Assembly: GCA_028819575.1 (NCBI GenBank)
Contig: JAPPLB010000007.1
Coordinates: forward strand, 1-64,000
Reading direction: 5' to 3'
DNA length: 64,000 nucleotides
Source of the DNA: Bryobacterales bacterium
Lineage (GTDB): Bacteria > Acidobacteriota > Terriglobia > Bryobacterales > UBA6623
In this document: positions 24,573 to 47,161 of the stretch, piece after piece
How positions within the stretch are numbered: the stretch's first letter is position 1
Layout of the letters: every line of letters starts with the position of its first letter
Notes under the pieces: model-generated
What the model saw: only the letters and a program-made list of their open reading frames with translations
Told to the model about the DNA's origin: nothing
Databases searched by the model: none
Position numbers and translations under genes: made by a program

Positions 24573-24789
24573 ATCCTGCATTTCTCACCACCCGACGGTC
24601 GAAGCACTCGATACGACCGCCATGACTTCGCTTTTCCTTCGCAACGCTTGCTTGCCGTGCTCGACGTACGGTTCAAGTACGCCTGTGCGCGCCAAGCGGC
24701 TCGCGCCTTTTTCCTCCGCCCGGCTTGCGCCTAGTCCTGACGGCCCTCTCACCCACTTCGCCTCGCCACGTGGTGAGAAATGCAGGCTA
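24573..24789 (+). repeat. Repeat A copy 6, full long subtype
   Basis: The best-preserved full copy, running from ATCCTGCATTTCTCACCACC to GTGGTGAGAAATGCAGGCTA. It includes the long internal block and a 12-base local expansion (CTTTTCCTTCGCAACG) relative to copy 4. The gene-free stretch 24427-24942 holds this repeat and otherwise nothing I recognise. Confidence 0.93.
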
Positions 24790-24942
24790 CCGCCCGTTAC
24801 CAGCATCGAGGTCGAGCCGGTGATGGGAATCATGTTCACCGCGCCCCGGTTGAAGTTTCTCCCGTCCTGGTGACGGGGGGATTTGCTGAGGGGGGGTGGC
24901 TGGCTCGTTTGTAGTATTGTGTAGTGGAGGGGGTAGCCCGAA

Positions 24943-26208
24943 TTGTCTCGATATACTTCTTACTCCGCGCGGATGCTCGTCCGGAGTGTCCTCGGCGCCG
25001 GGCTGTTGCTCCTCTTGTTCGCGGGGCTCGCGCCGGCTCAGCAGTACGACCTGCTCATCAAGAACGGCCGCGTCATCGATCCCGGTAACGAGATCAACGC
25101 CGTGATGGACGTTGCCGTCTCCGGAGACAAGATCGCCAAGGTCGCCGAAGACATCCCTTCCGAGCAAGCCAAGAAAACGATTGACGCCGCGGGTCTCTAC
25201 GTCACTCCGGGACTCGTCGACCTGCACGCTCACGTCTTCGGATACTCAGGCTCTCTCTGGCCCGACGACACTCACCTCCTCACCGGCACGACGACCATCG
25301 TCGACTGCGGCGGCGCCGGATGGCGGACCTTCGAGACCTTCAAGGAAACCGTCATTGACCGCTCGAAGACCCGCGTCCTCGCATTCATCAATGTCGTCGG
25401 CGCCGGGATGGTCGGAACCGAGAGCGACATCGAAGACATGGATCATGAGAAGCTCGCCGCCAAGATCCAGCAGTACCCAGGCCTGATCGTCGGCATCAAG
25501 TGTGCTCACTACGGCCGCCGCGACTACTTCAACCTCGAACAAGCCGTCAAGGCGGGCAACATTGCCGGCGTGCCGATGATCGTCGATAACAGCATCCTTA
25601 CCAATAACGACCGAGACACCGAGACCAAGCTGCTGAAGTACTTCCGGCCTGGCGACATTCACACCCACATGTTCAACGACCGCCATATGGAGATCGTCGA
25701 CCGCTTTACCGGCAAAGTACAGCCCTACATGTACGAAGCACGCGAGAAAGGCCGCCTCTTTGACATCGGCCACGGCAACGGCAGCTTTGTCTGGCCCGCG
25801 GCCCACAAGTCGATGGAGCAGAAGTTCTACCCCGACACCATCAGCACTGACCTCCACAATATGAGCATCTTTTCGACCAAAGCAGATATGCCCAACGTCA
25901 TGTCGAAGATGATGGCGCTCGGCATGTCGCTCGAAGAGGCCATTTTCCGTTCGACCGCCCGCCCGGCGCAAGTCATTGACAAATACCCCGAGATCGGTAC
26001 GCTTGGCGAAGGCAAGGAAGCCGACATCGCGCTGCTCGTGCTCGAGCAAGGCATCTTCGGTTACTCCGACGCCTGGAAAAAAAAGAAGCTCGCCGATCTG
26101 CGGCTGCGTGCCGTTCTCACCGTACGCGCCGGCGAACTTGTCTTCGACGAGAGAGGGCTCGGATTCCCCGAGTGGGACACCGCCGGTGAATACGAGAGGA
26201 TCCCCTAG
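24943..26208 (+). CDS. Exported amidohydrolase, tandem paralogue 1
   Basis: A 421-residue metal-dependent hydrolase of the amidohydrolase superfamily, close to the dihydroorotase-like amidohydrolase/deacetylase group. A signal peptide (LLLLLFAGLAPAQ) implies export. Motifs run in order: YDLLIKNGRVIDPGNE, LHAH metal pair at about residue 90, GIKCAHYG with the bridging Lys, HTHMFNDRH, DIGHGNGSF, and STDLH with the catalytic Asp. The C-terminus rejoins the small beta domain (LTVRAGELVFD). I chose the TTG at 24943, which follows GGAGGGGG by about nine bases; the ATG at 24973 lacks a site. It heads a cluster of three paralogues. Substrate unknown. Confidence 0.88.
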   Translation: MSRYTSYSARMLVRSVLGAGLLLLLFAGLAPAQQYDLLIKNGRVIDPGNEINAVMDVAVSGDKIAKVAEDIPSEQAKKTIDAAGLYVTPGLVDLHAHVFGYSGSLWPDDTHLLTGTTTIVDCGGAGWRTFETFKETVIDRSKTRVLAFINVVGAGMVGTESDIEDMDHEKLAAKIQQYPGLIVGIKCAHYGRRDYFNLEQAVKAGNIAGVPMIVDNSILTNNDRDTETKLLKYFRPGDIHTHMFNDRHMEIVDRFTGKVQPYMYEAREKGRLFDIGHGNGSFVWPAAHKSMEQKFYPDTISTDLHNMSIFSTKADMPNVMSKMMALGMSLEEAIFRSTARPAQVIDKYPEIGTLGEGKEADIALLVLEQGIFGYSDAWKKKKLADLRLRAVLTVRAGELVFDERGLGFPEWDTAGEYERIP

Positions 26209-26235: not shown

Positions 26236-27522
26236 ATGGGCATGCAAGACATCCAAGGTTTTGAAAACACCATGCGGTCATCCAAGACGTTCTTCCTGAT
26301 ATTTCTTCTTGTCCTGATCCTGCCCATACAGGCCCAAGACCCTGCCGCCGACACCACGATCTACGATCTGCTCCTGAAGAACGGCCACGTCATCGACATC
26401 AAGAACAACCTTAACGGCCGCTTCGACATCGCCGTCATCGGCGAGAAGATCCACACTGTCGCCGAAAACCTCCCTGCCTATCGCGCGAAGAAAGTCGTTG
26501 ACGTCAGCGAGTATTACGTCACTCCCGGCCTGATCGACATTCACACGCATTTCGACCAGTATGGCGCTTGGCTCAACCTAAATCCCGATCACAACACACT
26601 CCGCTACGGGGTGACAACGGCCGTCGACGCGGGTAGTTCCGGTCATGAGGGGTTCGAGAAGTTCAAATCGGAAACCATCGACAAGGCGCGCGTTCGCTTG
26701 CTGGCTTTTCTGAACATCGTCGGCGCAGGCATGTACGGCCGCGAGGTCGAGAACGACGTTGAGCAGATGGACGTCGATGCCGCTGTCGCCATGGTCAACA
26801 AGCACCCCGATGACATCGTCGGCATCAAGACCGCGCACTATCAACCGCAAGACTGGGAAGCGATCGACCGCGCCGTCAAAGCCGCCGAGATGAGCAACAG
26901 CGTCCTGATGGTCGACTTCCACCCCAAGGAAGGCCGCGGCTACGAGGAACTGATCCTTGAGCATATGAAGCCCGGCAACATCCACACGCACTTCTACGGA
27001 CGATTGACGCCGCAACTCGACGAGAACAAAAAAGTCCGCGATTACATGTGGAAAGCGCGAGAGAGGGGCATCCTGTTCGACGTCGGTCACGGCTCCGGGA
27101 GCTTCTGGTTCCGCATCGCCGTCCCCGCCATCAAGCAGGGTTTCCTGCCCGACACCATCTCCACCGATATTCACAAGAACAGCATCATGTTGCCGCGCGC
27201 TCACCTGAACAACGTGATGTCGAAGTTCCTTAACATCGGCCTGACCTTCGAACAGATCATCGAACGCACCACGGTCAACCCGGCGGAAGCGATCCGCCGC
27301 AGCGATCTCGGGACGCTCGATGAGGGCTCGACCGCCGACATCGCGATCCTCAAGATCGAAGAGGGTGAGTTTGCTTTCCTCGACTCCGGCCGCGGCAAGC
27401 TCACGGCGAAAAAAAACATCCGCTGCATGATGACCGTCCGCAAGGGAGAGATCATCTGGGATGCCGAGGGCATCAGCATGCCTGAGTGGAGTACCGCAGG
27501 GCCCTACAGCAACTTTCGCTAG
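26236..27522 (+). CDS. Exported amidohydrolase, tandem paralogue 2
   Basis: A second complete copy (428 residues) that starts 28 bases after paralogue 1. A signal peptide lies at FFLIFLLVLILPIQAQ. Metal-binding and catalytic motifs match paralogue 1: IHTH at residues 99-102 region, GIKTAHYQ, HTHFYG, DVGHGSGSF and STDIH. The start may be the ATG at 26272 (MRSSKTFFLI), which gives a cleaner signal peptide; 26236 is the longer choice. The protein is clearly diverged from paralogue 1 except around the active site, so duplication is old. Probable operon with the genes on each side. Confidence 0.88.
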   Translation: MGMQDIQGFENTMRSSKTFFLIFLLVLILPIQAQDPAADTTIYDLLLKNGHVIDIKNNLNGRFDIAVIGEKIHTVAENLPAYRAKKVVDVSEYYVTPGLIDIHTHFDQYGAWLNLNPDHNTLRYGVTTAVDAGSSGHEGFEKFKSETIDKARVRLLAFLNIVGAGMYGREVENDVEQMDVDAAVAMVNKHPDDIVGIKTAHYQPQDWEAIDRAVKAAEMSNSVLMVDFHPKEGRGYEELILEHMKPGNIHTHFYGRLTPQLDENKKVRDYMWKARERGILFDVGHGSGSFWFRIAVPAIKQGFLPDTISTDIHKNSIMLPRAHLNNVMSKFLNIGLTFEQIIERTTVNPAEAIRRSDLGTLDEGSTADIAILKIEEGEFAFLDSGRGKLTAKKNIRCMMTVRKGEIIWDAEGISMPEWSTAGPYSNFR

Positions 27523-27532
27523 GGAGCTCGGG

Positions 27533-28768
27533 ATGTCGCTGCAGCACGCGGCCCTGATTTGCGTGCTTGTTGTCCCAGTTCCAGTAACAGCACAGCCGTA
27601 CGACTAGATTCTCAAAGGCGGCCACGTGATCGATCCTGCCAACGGGATTGATCGCATCATGGATATCGCCGTCGCGGGCAAGACCATCGCCCGCGTCGCC
27701 GAAAACATTCCTGCCGAAGAGGCGAAGAAAGTCATCGACGTCACTGGCTATTAGGTCACCCCGGGACTCGTCGACATCCATGGGCATGTCTTCGGATATC
27801 GAGGCTCGATCTGGCCCGACGACACCCATCTCACCCAGGGAGTGACCACCGTTGCAGACTGCGGCGGATCGGGCTGGCGCACGTTCGACGAGTTCAAGCA
27901 AACGGTGATCGACCGTGCCAAGACCCGTATCTACGCCTTCATCAACATCGTCGGCAGGGGCATGGTCGGGTCGCAGGCGGAGAACGATGTCACCGACATG
28001 GAGGCAGACAAGACTGCCGAGAAGATCGAGCAATATCCCGACATCATCGTCGGCATCAAGACGGCGCACTTTGCCCGCAAGGGTTATCTGCCGCTGGAGC
28101 GTGCGGTCGAGGCGGGTAGGCGTACGAACACGCCGGTCATCGTCGACATGCAAGTCCTCACTCATCAGGCGCGCGATACGAAGACAAAGCTCCTTGAGAT
28201 CCTCCGTCCCGGCGACATTCATACCCACATGAACAGCGACCGGCAGCTTGAAATGGTCAACCGCGCCACTCGTGAGATGCAGCCCTGGATGTGGGAGGCG
28301 CGCCAACGCGGAATCATCTTCGATGTCGGACACGGTGCGGGCGCCTTCATCTTCCCCACCGCCTACGACTCGATGCAGCACGGCTTCCCGCCCGATACTC
28401 TCAGCAGTGACCTGCACAACACCAGCATCGTGAAGACCAAGCCCGCAATGCCGAATGTCATCTCGAAATTCATGAACTTCGGCATGACCCTTCAGGAAGC
28501 CATCTACAGATCCACGGCCTGCCCCGCGCAAGCCATCAATCGGTTCCCCGAAGTCGGCACGCTCAGCGCTGGCAAAGTCGCCGATGTCGCCGTCCTCCAA
28601 CTTCGCCGCGGCGTTTTCGGTTTCAACGATGCCAACCTCCGCCGCATGATTGGCACCAGGAAAATCGAAGCTGTCCTCACTCTCCGCGCCGGTGAGCTTG
28701 TCTTCGATGCCCATGGCTTGGCCTTTCCTGAATGGCACACCCAGGGAGACTACAATCGGATTCCGTGA
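27533..28768 (+). pseudogene. Exported amidohydrolase, tandem paralogue 3, interrupted by two in-frame TAG codons
   Basis: From the ATG at 27533, with GGGAG six bases upstream, one frame runs 412 codons to the TGA at 28768 and aligns end to end with paralogues 1 and 2. Only two codons break it: TAG at 27605-27607 (codon 25), where paralogue 1 has Leu in YDLLIKNG, and TAG at 27752-27754 (codon 74), where the paralogues have Tyr in YVTPGL. The signal peptide, IHGH, GIKTAHF, HTHMNSDR, DVGHGAGAF and SSDLH motifs are intact and no frameshift is seen. A GTG at 27842 could start a 308-residue fragment, but it would lack the first metal site. Most likely a young pseudogene; many other genes here end in TAG, which argues against recoding. 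Confidence 0.85.
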
Positions 28769-45540: not shown

Positions 45541-46545
45541 CTAGCGGCGGGTGCCCTTGATCTCGGTGTTGAACTTGAACAGCGTTTTACCGGCTGTGAC
45601 GTAGAGGGTCTTCATGTCGGGACCTCCAAAGGCGCAGTTCGTAATGATGTCCTCAGGGATCGGAACGAACTGTATCAGCTCGCCGTCCGGTGCGAAGACG
45701 TGCACGCCGCACTTCGTGTCGAGGGTCTCGCTGGTCTTGCGCAGACGATGCAGGCCGGCGGCTACGTAGAGGTTGCCTTCGCTGTCGATGGTCATTCCGT
45801 CTCCGCTGCGGCCAGGATAGAAATCGTGAAAGACCCTCATGTTCGTGACCGTTCCGTCAGGCCGCAGGTCATAGGCTCGGATCATCCGGGCGCGGTCGGC
45901 GTCGGGATGCGCCTCGATCAGATAGAACGTCTTGTCGTCCGGGGAAATGACAAGGCCGTTCGGCTTGTCGATGTCGGGCGCTTTGAGGATCTGGTGGATC
46001 GAACCATCGGTGTCGATGCGGTAGACGGCGTCGACGTTCGTCTGGTCGGGCGCGGGATCCCTGCGGGGGCGGTCTGTGAAATACAACCGGCCCTGACTGT
46101 CGAATGTGACGTCGTTCGGCTGGCTGAGGCGTTTGTCCCCGAAGGATTCTGCGATGACCTCGATCTCGCCAGTCTCCAGGTTGGTGCGGGTCAGCCTCGG
46201 GTTGTCGAGTTGGGCGTTGCTGCCTTCGCAGGCGATGAGGCGCCACTGGTCGTCGAAAACGAGGCCGTTGGCGCGATTGCTGTTCTCCCTGAAGACAACA
46301 AGCTCGCCATCGGGCATCGCCCGCATGATGCGGTGGCTCCTTGTATCGGTGAAGAAGACGCTGCCGTCTTTGTAGACCGTCGGACCTTCGGTGAAAGCGA
46401 TGCTCGCGGCGGCCTCGACCTTGGGAATGACGCCCGCAGGGGCGCTCTCCATCACGGACTCGGAAGCCGGCGCGCAAGCGCTACCGGTCAGCCATGCACA
46501 ACCCAAGGCCAGTGCTAGAATGGTGATCCCAATTACTCGGTTCAC
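45541..46545 (-). CDS. SMP-30/gluconolactonase-family lipoprotein
   Basis: A 334-residue exported six-bladed propeller. The GTG at 46545, preceded by GGAGG at the right distance, starts a lipoprotein signal (MNRVIGITILALALGCAWLTGSAC). Metal-ligand positions are visible: Glu in IAFTEGPTVY, Asn in LSQPNDVTFD and Asp in GRSGDGMTID, with the extra Asn in DKPNGLVISPD. This matches lactonases that open sugar lactones, but related proteins have other activities. The longer open frame to 46668 runs through the purE start region and is rejected. Divergent from purE. Confidence 0.88.
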   Translation of the reverse strand: MNRVIGITILALALGCAWLTGSACAPASESVMESAPAGVIPKVEAAASIAFTEGPTVYKDGSVFFTDTRSHRIMRAMPDGELVVFRENSNRANGLVFDDQWRLIACEGSNAQLDNPRLTRTNLETGEIEVIAESFGDKRLSQPNDVTFDSQGRLYFTDRPRRDPAPDQTNVDAVYRIDTDGSIHQILKAPDIDKPNGLVISPDDKTFYLIEAHPDADRARMIRAYDLRPDGTVTNMRVFHDFYPGRSGDGMTIDSEGNLYVAAGLHRLRKTSETLDTKCGVHVFAPDGELIQFVPIPEDIITNCAFGGPDMKTLYVTAGKTLFKFNTEIKGTRR

Positions 46546-46666
46546 AAGGTCCTCCGAAGGGTCTTCGCGTCGAGAAACCGTAACAGTATACCCCGCGTTT
46601 GGAGCGCGGCGAGCTTGTTGAGCCCCGTGCGGCGGACGCATCCATTTCCCTAAGTGAGTCAATGGC

Positions 46667-47161
46667 ATGGCAGATCAGGAAACACCTCTCGTCGGAATCC
46701 TCATGGGTAGCACGTCCGATTGGGAGACGATGAAAAACGCGTCGGATGTGCTGAAAGACTTCGGCGTGCCCCATGAATGCAGGGCGCTGTCGGCGCATCG
46801 CACGCCGGAGGCGGTGGTGGAGTTTGTCTCGTCGGCTGAGGACCGCGGTATCGAGGTCATGATCGCGGCGGCAGGTGGAGCGGCTCACTTGGCCGGCGTC
46901 GTGGCGGCGCACACCATCCTGCCGGTGCTCGGCGTGCCGATGTCCAGTGTGTTGAACGGACTGGACTCGCTGCTTTCGACGGTTCAGATGCCCGGCGGAA
47001 TCCCGGTCGGAACTCTCGCCATTGGCAAGGCCGGTGCGAAGAACGCCGCGCTGCTGGCGGTCGCCATCCTGGCGCGCAAGCGGCCCGAGCTGCGCGAGAA
47101 ACTGATCCGGTTTCGCGAGTCGCAGACAGAGAAGGTCAAGGCCGCGACCTTGCCGGTGTGA
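46667..47161 (+). CDS. purE: 5-(carboxyamino)imidazole ribonucleotide mutase
   Basis: Rearranges N5-CAIR to CAIR in purine biosynthesis. The 164-residue length and motifs are class I: LMGSTSDWETM, ALSAHRTPE, IAAAGGAAHLAGVVAAHT and STVQMPGGIPVGTLAIG. The usual partner purK is not next to it. The ATG at 46667 begins MADQETPLVGILMGS. lepA follows after a separate promoter. Confidence 0.97.
   Translation: MADQETPLVGILMGSTSDWETMKNASDVLKDFGVPHECRALSAHRTPEAVVEFVSSAEDRGIEVMIAAAGGAAHLAGVVAAHTILPVLGVPMSSVLNGLDSLLSTVQMPGGIPVGTLAIGKAGAKNAALLAVAILARKRPELREKLIRFRESQTEKVKAATLPV

Follow-up and report, generated by a model that had tools for sequence, protein, structure and literature searches.

The window, a 64,000-nucleotide stretch from the draft genome of an uncultured Bryobacterales bacterium (G000; 5.37 Mb in 200 contigs, 98.7% complete), contains a tandem of three amidohydrolase genes, the third of which is interrupted by two in-frame amber codons (Table 1). 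The reading frame of gene 3 begins 10 bp past the stop codon of gene 2, is preceded by a GGGAG-like ribosome-binding site, and terminates with TGA. Its translation contains no stops other than the TAG codons 25 and 74, in agreement with the preliminary description, which had listed the 412-codon frame, its ribosome-binding site, and the two ambers as its only interruptions.

Pfam and NCBIfam searches assigned the interrupted frame of gene 3 to the family of genes 1 and 2. Scanned by itself, the open part of gene 3 scored 276.8 bits, below the NF006689 cutoff of 371, and the frame with its stops bridged by X exceeded the cutoffs of PF07969 and PF01979. All three genes of the tandem are members of the amidohydrolase superfamily, with NF006689/PRK09237 (COG3964-type) as the closest family, and the genome contains at least 18 family matches. 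Solved structures of relatives of the tandem family include 8je0, 2ics, 2ogj, and 8wzy. Gene 3 resembles the amidohydrolase/deacetylase family metallohydrolases of COG3964/PRK09237 (NF006689) in fold family, length, and metal-site residues, and the frame is 53–64% identical to intact proteins over its full length; unlike these proteins, it is interrupted by two nonsense codons. As had been proposed, the sequence motifs are retained: residues K176, H232, H267, and D293 are invariant in the family alignment, and the H83xH85 motif is also present in gene 3. From general knowledge of the amidohydrolase superfamily, we take all of these to be metal-site residues. The full-length protein identity, together with the 94% DNA identity to the syntenic gene of a related genome, indicates that the frame of gene 3 is more than a product of chance.

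Table 1 Features of the amidohydrolase tandem, in coordinates of the window.
Feature	Position (strand)	Remarks
Gene 1, intact COG3964-type amidohydrolase (NF006689/PRK09237)	24943..26208 (+)	372.6 bits, cutoff 371; intact in G002
Gene 2, intact amidohydrolase, same family as gene 1	26236..27522 (+)	389.5 bits, cutoff 371
Gene 3, probable amidohydrolase pseudogene	27533..28768 (+)	412 codons, interrupted by two in-frame TAGs
In-frame TAG, codon 25	27605..27607 (+)	TAC (Tyr) in G002 orthologue; Leu or Ile in other relatives
In-frame TAG, codon 74	27752..27754 (+)	TAC (Tyr) in G002 orthologue; Tyr in genes 1 and 2
HxH metal motif (His-Gly-His), codons 83–85	27779..27787 (+)	3' of both ambers, 5' of first possible restart codon
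Longest open frame past the ambers, 308 aa from GTG	27842..28768 (+)	Lacks the HxH motif
Site of the base missing from the G002 orthologue, codon 207	28151..28151 (+)	Separate 1-bp deletion (frameshift) of G002; window intact here

A repeat of about 220 bp lies 5' of the tandem (24573–24793) and is absent from the corresponding site of G002. Matches to it number at least 50 in G000 and 46 in G002; its copies in G001 are diverged, and G005 has none. The repeat ends in 17-bp inverted repeats and looks like a genus-specific MITE-like element. Elsewhere in the window, the 375-residue frame at 45541–46668 has a 467-residue counterpart in G002 (contig C27, 51461–52865), of which only 70% aligned, and this gene may also differ between the two genomes by an indel or a truncation.

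The three-gene tandem is also present in the related genomes G001, G002, and G005. The comparison within the genus comprised three genomes, G000 included, and the closest of the genomes compared is G002, the metagenome-assembled genome "Bryobacterales bacterium APA_bin_29". The third gene is intact in G001 (64% identity) and G005 (63%). The syntenic third gene of G002, the sister species, is 94% identical to gene 3 in DNA. It has TAC (Tyr) at both TAG sites of the window and is also broken, by a different lesion, the loss of a single base opposite codon 207. The copies of gene 3 in G000 and G002 have no lesion in common. Substitutions at columns conserved in relatives have occurred in both lineages, at C330 in the window and at S53, S169, and D386 in G002. 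Genes 1 and 2 and about 150 other family copies among the matches listed in the relatives are open, except for one TAA in a G001 copy. That copy was considered as a second broken family member and rejected, since the TAA is located at the natural C-terminus of the protein. The preliminary description had given the corresponding residues as Leu at codon 25 in paralogue 1 and Tyr at codon 74 in both paralogues. These assignments are correct, as genes 1 and 2 both have CTG at codon 25 and TAC at codon 74; in the nearest orthologue, however, codon 25 specifies Tyr instead of Leu. Literature searches returned nothing bearing on gene 3.

The interruptions of gene 3 could be assembly or base-call errors in an intact gene, given that both genomes are draft assemblies, that of G002 and probably that of G000 derived from metagenomes. 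We consider this very unlikely. Among 76–78 coding frames paired with their counterparts in G002 (about 29,000 codons), from which antisense shadow frames were filtered out by third-position divergence, mid-gene ambers were found only in gene 3, and the other internal stops were located near gene ends. A random error rate that would place two hits in one gene and no other mid-gene stops in this sample is not credible, and the orthologue is broken independently.

The divergence of gene 3 from its G002 counterpart retains the signature of a constrained gene. Gene 3 has a dN/dS ratio of 0.24, higher than those of gene 1 (0.19) and gene 2 (0.09), and the neighbouring genes span 0.03 to 0.39. For codons 75–411 of gene 3, the part past the ambers for which a selection test had been proposed, dN/dS is 0.14, and the ratio of nonsynonymous to synonymous changes is 15:30, as compared with 31:67 in genes 1 and 2 (p = 0.85). 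The rate of evolution in this part of gene 3 does not exceed that of genes 1 and 2, and no decay can yet be seen in it, which speaks against a pseudogene. However, changes at second codon positions are in excess over the whole gene (12/412 in gene 3 versus 5/849 in genes 1 and 2, Fisher p = 0.003), as would be expected if selection were relaxed, but some of this excess is located in the variable signal peptide. Since the divergence past the stops is still constrained, the bulk of it probably arose under constraint, and the inactivation would be recent in each lineage.

Restart of translation downstream of the ambers could produce a shortened functional protein, and the 308-residue frame that starts from a GTG is open and recognized by NCBIfam. 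We regard such a product as extremely improbable. There is no ATG, GTG, or TTG between codons 74 and 104, so that a restarted protein would have neither the HxH motif nor the N-terminal strands, and the frameshift in codon 207 of G002 would break the corresponding product there as well.

The constraint past the stops might alternatively reflect the decoding of TAG as a sense codon. The genome encodes release factor 1 (prfA, 527.5 bits), and no tRNA with a CUA anticodon was found among 44 RF00005 matches, an absence that is not absolute in an assembly that is 98.7% complete. The sole tRNA-Tyr found has the anticodon GTA. Two tRNAs truncated by contig ends have, by eye, the anticodons GAT and CAC. 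The pyrrolysyl-tRNA synthetase PylS had no match above the cutoff of 178.15, the weak matches scoring 22–29 bits (best 28.6). TAG terminates 160 of 437 long frames (37%) in 0.97 Mb of scanned sequence, which bears out the earlier remark that many genes here end in TAG. A scan of the same 0.97 Mb for frames split by a stop recovered the stop of gene 3 at 27752 and detected 17 TAG, 13 TGA, and 7 TAA cases. Most of them were ordinary adjacent genes with a start codon nearby, and those without a near start comprised three TAG and three TGA, and thus no excess of TAG. The presence of release factor 1, the lack of a detected CUA tRNA, the many genes ending in TAG, and the lack of other mid-gene ambers together indicate that TAG functions as a stop codon in this genome. 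The readthrough or suppression that the preliminary description had called remarkable, naming a TAG-decoding tRNA and pyrrolysine genes as what to look for, thus finds no support.

A class II tRNA of G000 that was called as Trp(cca) (contig C13, 3099–3187, minus strand) was considered as an amber reader and rejected. It has a long variable arm, a tRNA-Leu-like 5' end, and the anticodon CCA, which reads UGG. It coexists with a normal tRNA-Trp(cca), was not found in G001, G002, or G005, and could be degenerate or acquired.

In spite of these results, a suppressor tRNA that reads both TAGs as tyrosine, or as another residue, and restores the full enzyme would fit the alignment of both ambers with tyrosine codons (TAC) of the sister copy and the apparent constraint on codons 75–411. 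We give it next to no probability, in view of the tRNA complement, the release factor, and the regular use of TAG as a stop, and because neither the paired codons nor the 0.97-Mb scan revealed a further clear mid-gene amber. Furthermore, a frameshift has inactivated the sister copy, so that the enzyme is dispensable there. There is just as minimal a chance that UAG is read as tyrosine by a tRNA encoded in a part of the genome missing from the assembly and that the two TAC-to-TAG changes are near-silent in the lineage. Basal readthrough, pyrrolysine-type decoding, or programmed recoding, which could yield low amounts of full-length protein from a frame that is open and conserved past the stops, is scarcely credible, since two serial stops would multiply low rates to a negligible level, every PylS match is far below the cutoff, and the absence of both TAGs from the sister copy is at odds with a conserved recoding signal.

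The occurrence of two ambers in one gene can be explained by ordinary substitutions. About 2.5–2.8% of random substitutions in gene 3 create a stop, and TAG accounts for 54% of these stops, so that the chance that both members of a pair of nonsense changes are ambers is near 0.29. With 30% of the window's branch neutral, two or more nonsense changes would have a probability of about 0.13, and with half of it neutral, of about 0.3. Two nonsense hits within a short neutral interval are therefore somewhat unlikely; however, the finding was selected for its lesions, and for such a finding the pair is unremarkable. The preliminary description had found it puzzling that there should be two independent ambers without frameshift decay. 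The puzzle largely dissolves, as the sister copy does contain a frameshift and more than half of the possible nonsense changes give TAG. A loose end is that both ambers are located at sites where the sister copy has Tyr, which makes TAC-to-TAG changes twice a little unusual. Given two nonsense changes, the chance of this is about 0.003–0.01, a post hoc figure that presupposes Tyr as the ancestral residue of codon 25, a position occupied by Leu or Ile in other relatives.

Based on these comparisons, gene 3 is very probably a recently inactivated pseudogene in a three-gene tandem of the COG3964 type, the sister copy of which was inactivated separately. The preliminary description had preferred a recent pseudogene, and the two TAGs, the 1-bp frameshift of the sister copy, and the lack of detected TAG-decoding machinery support that choice. 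The two nonsense substitutions would halt translation after 24 codons, which leaves a product only of the size of a signal peptide. In the sister species, the counterpart would have been lost separately through the 1-bp deletion. The likely cause is redundancy, because the many related copies in the genome may have freed gene 3 from selection in both lineages. Both genomes carry lesions, none of them shared, and no TAG-decoding machinery was detected; from this pattern, we infer in which order the events took place and that no product is made. The frameshift in G002 means that the loss is tolerated in a close relative, and the independent break makes a functional gene in either genome unlikely.

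The phenomenon represents ordinary gene decay. Gene 3 resembles other bacterial nonsense pseudogenes of multi-copy families in its null lesions, redundancy, differently broken sister copy, and recent age, and nothing essential differs, apart from the slightly unusual pair of TAC-to-TAG changes. At the level of sequence evidence, the question of recoding is closed for G000. The value of the finding is mainly in annotation: two closely related acidobacterial genomes have probably each lost a redundant tandem amidohydrolase in a separate event.
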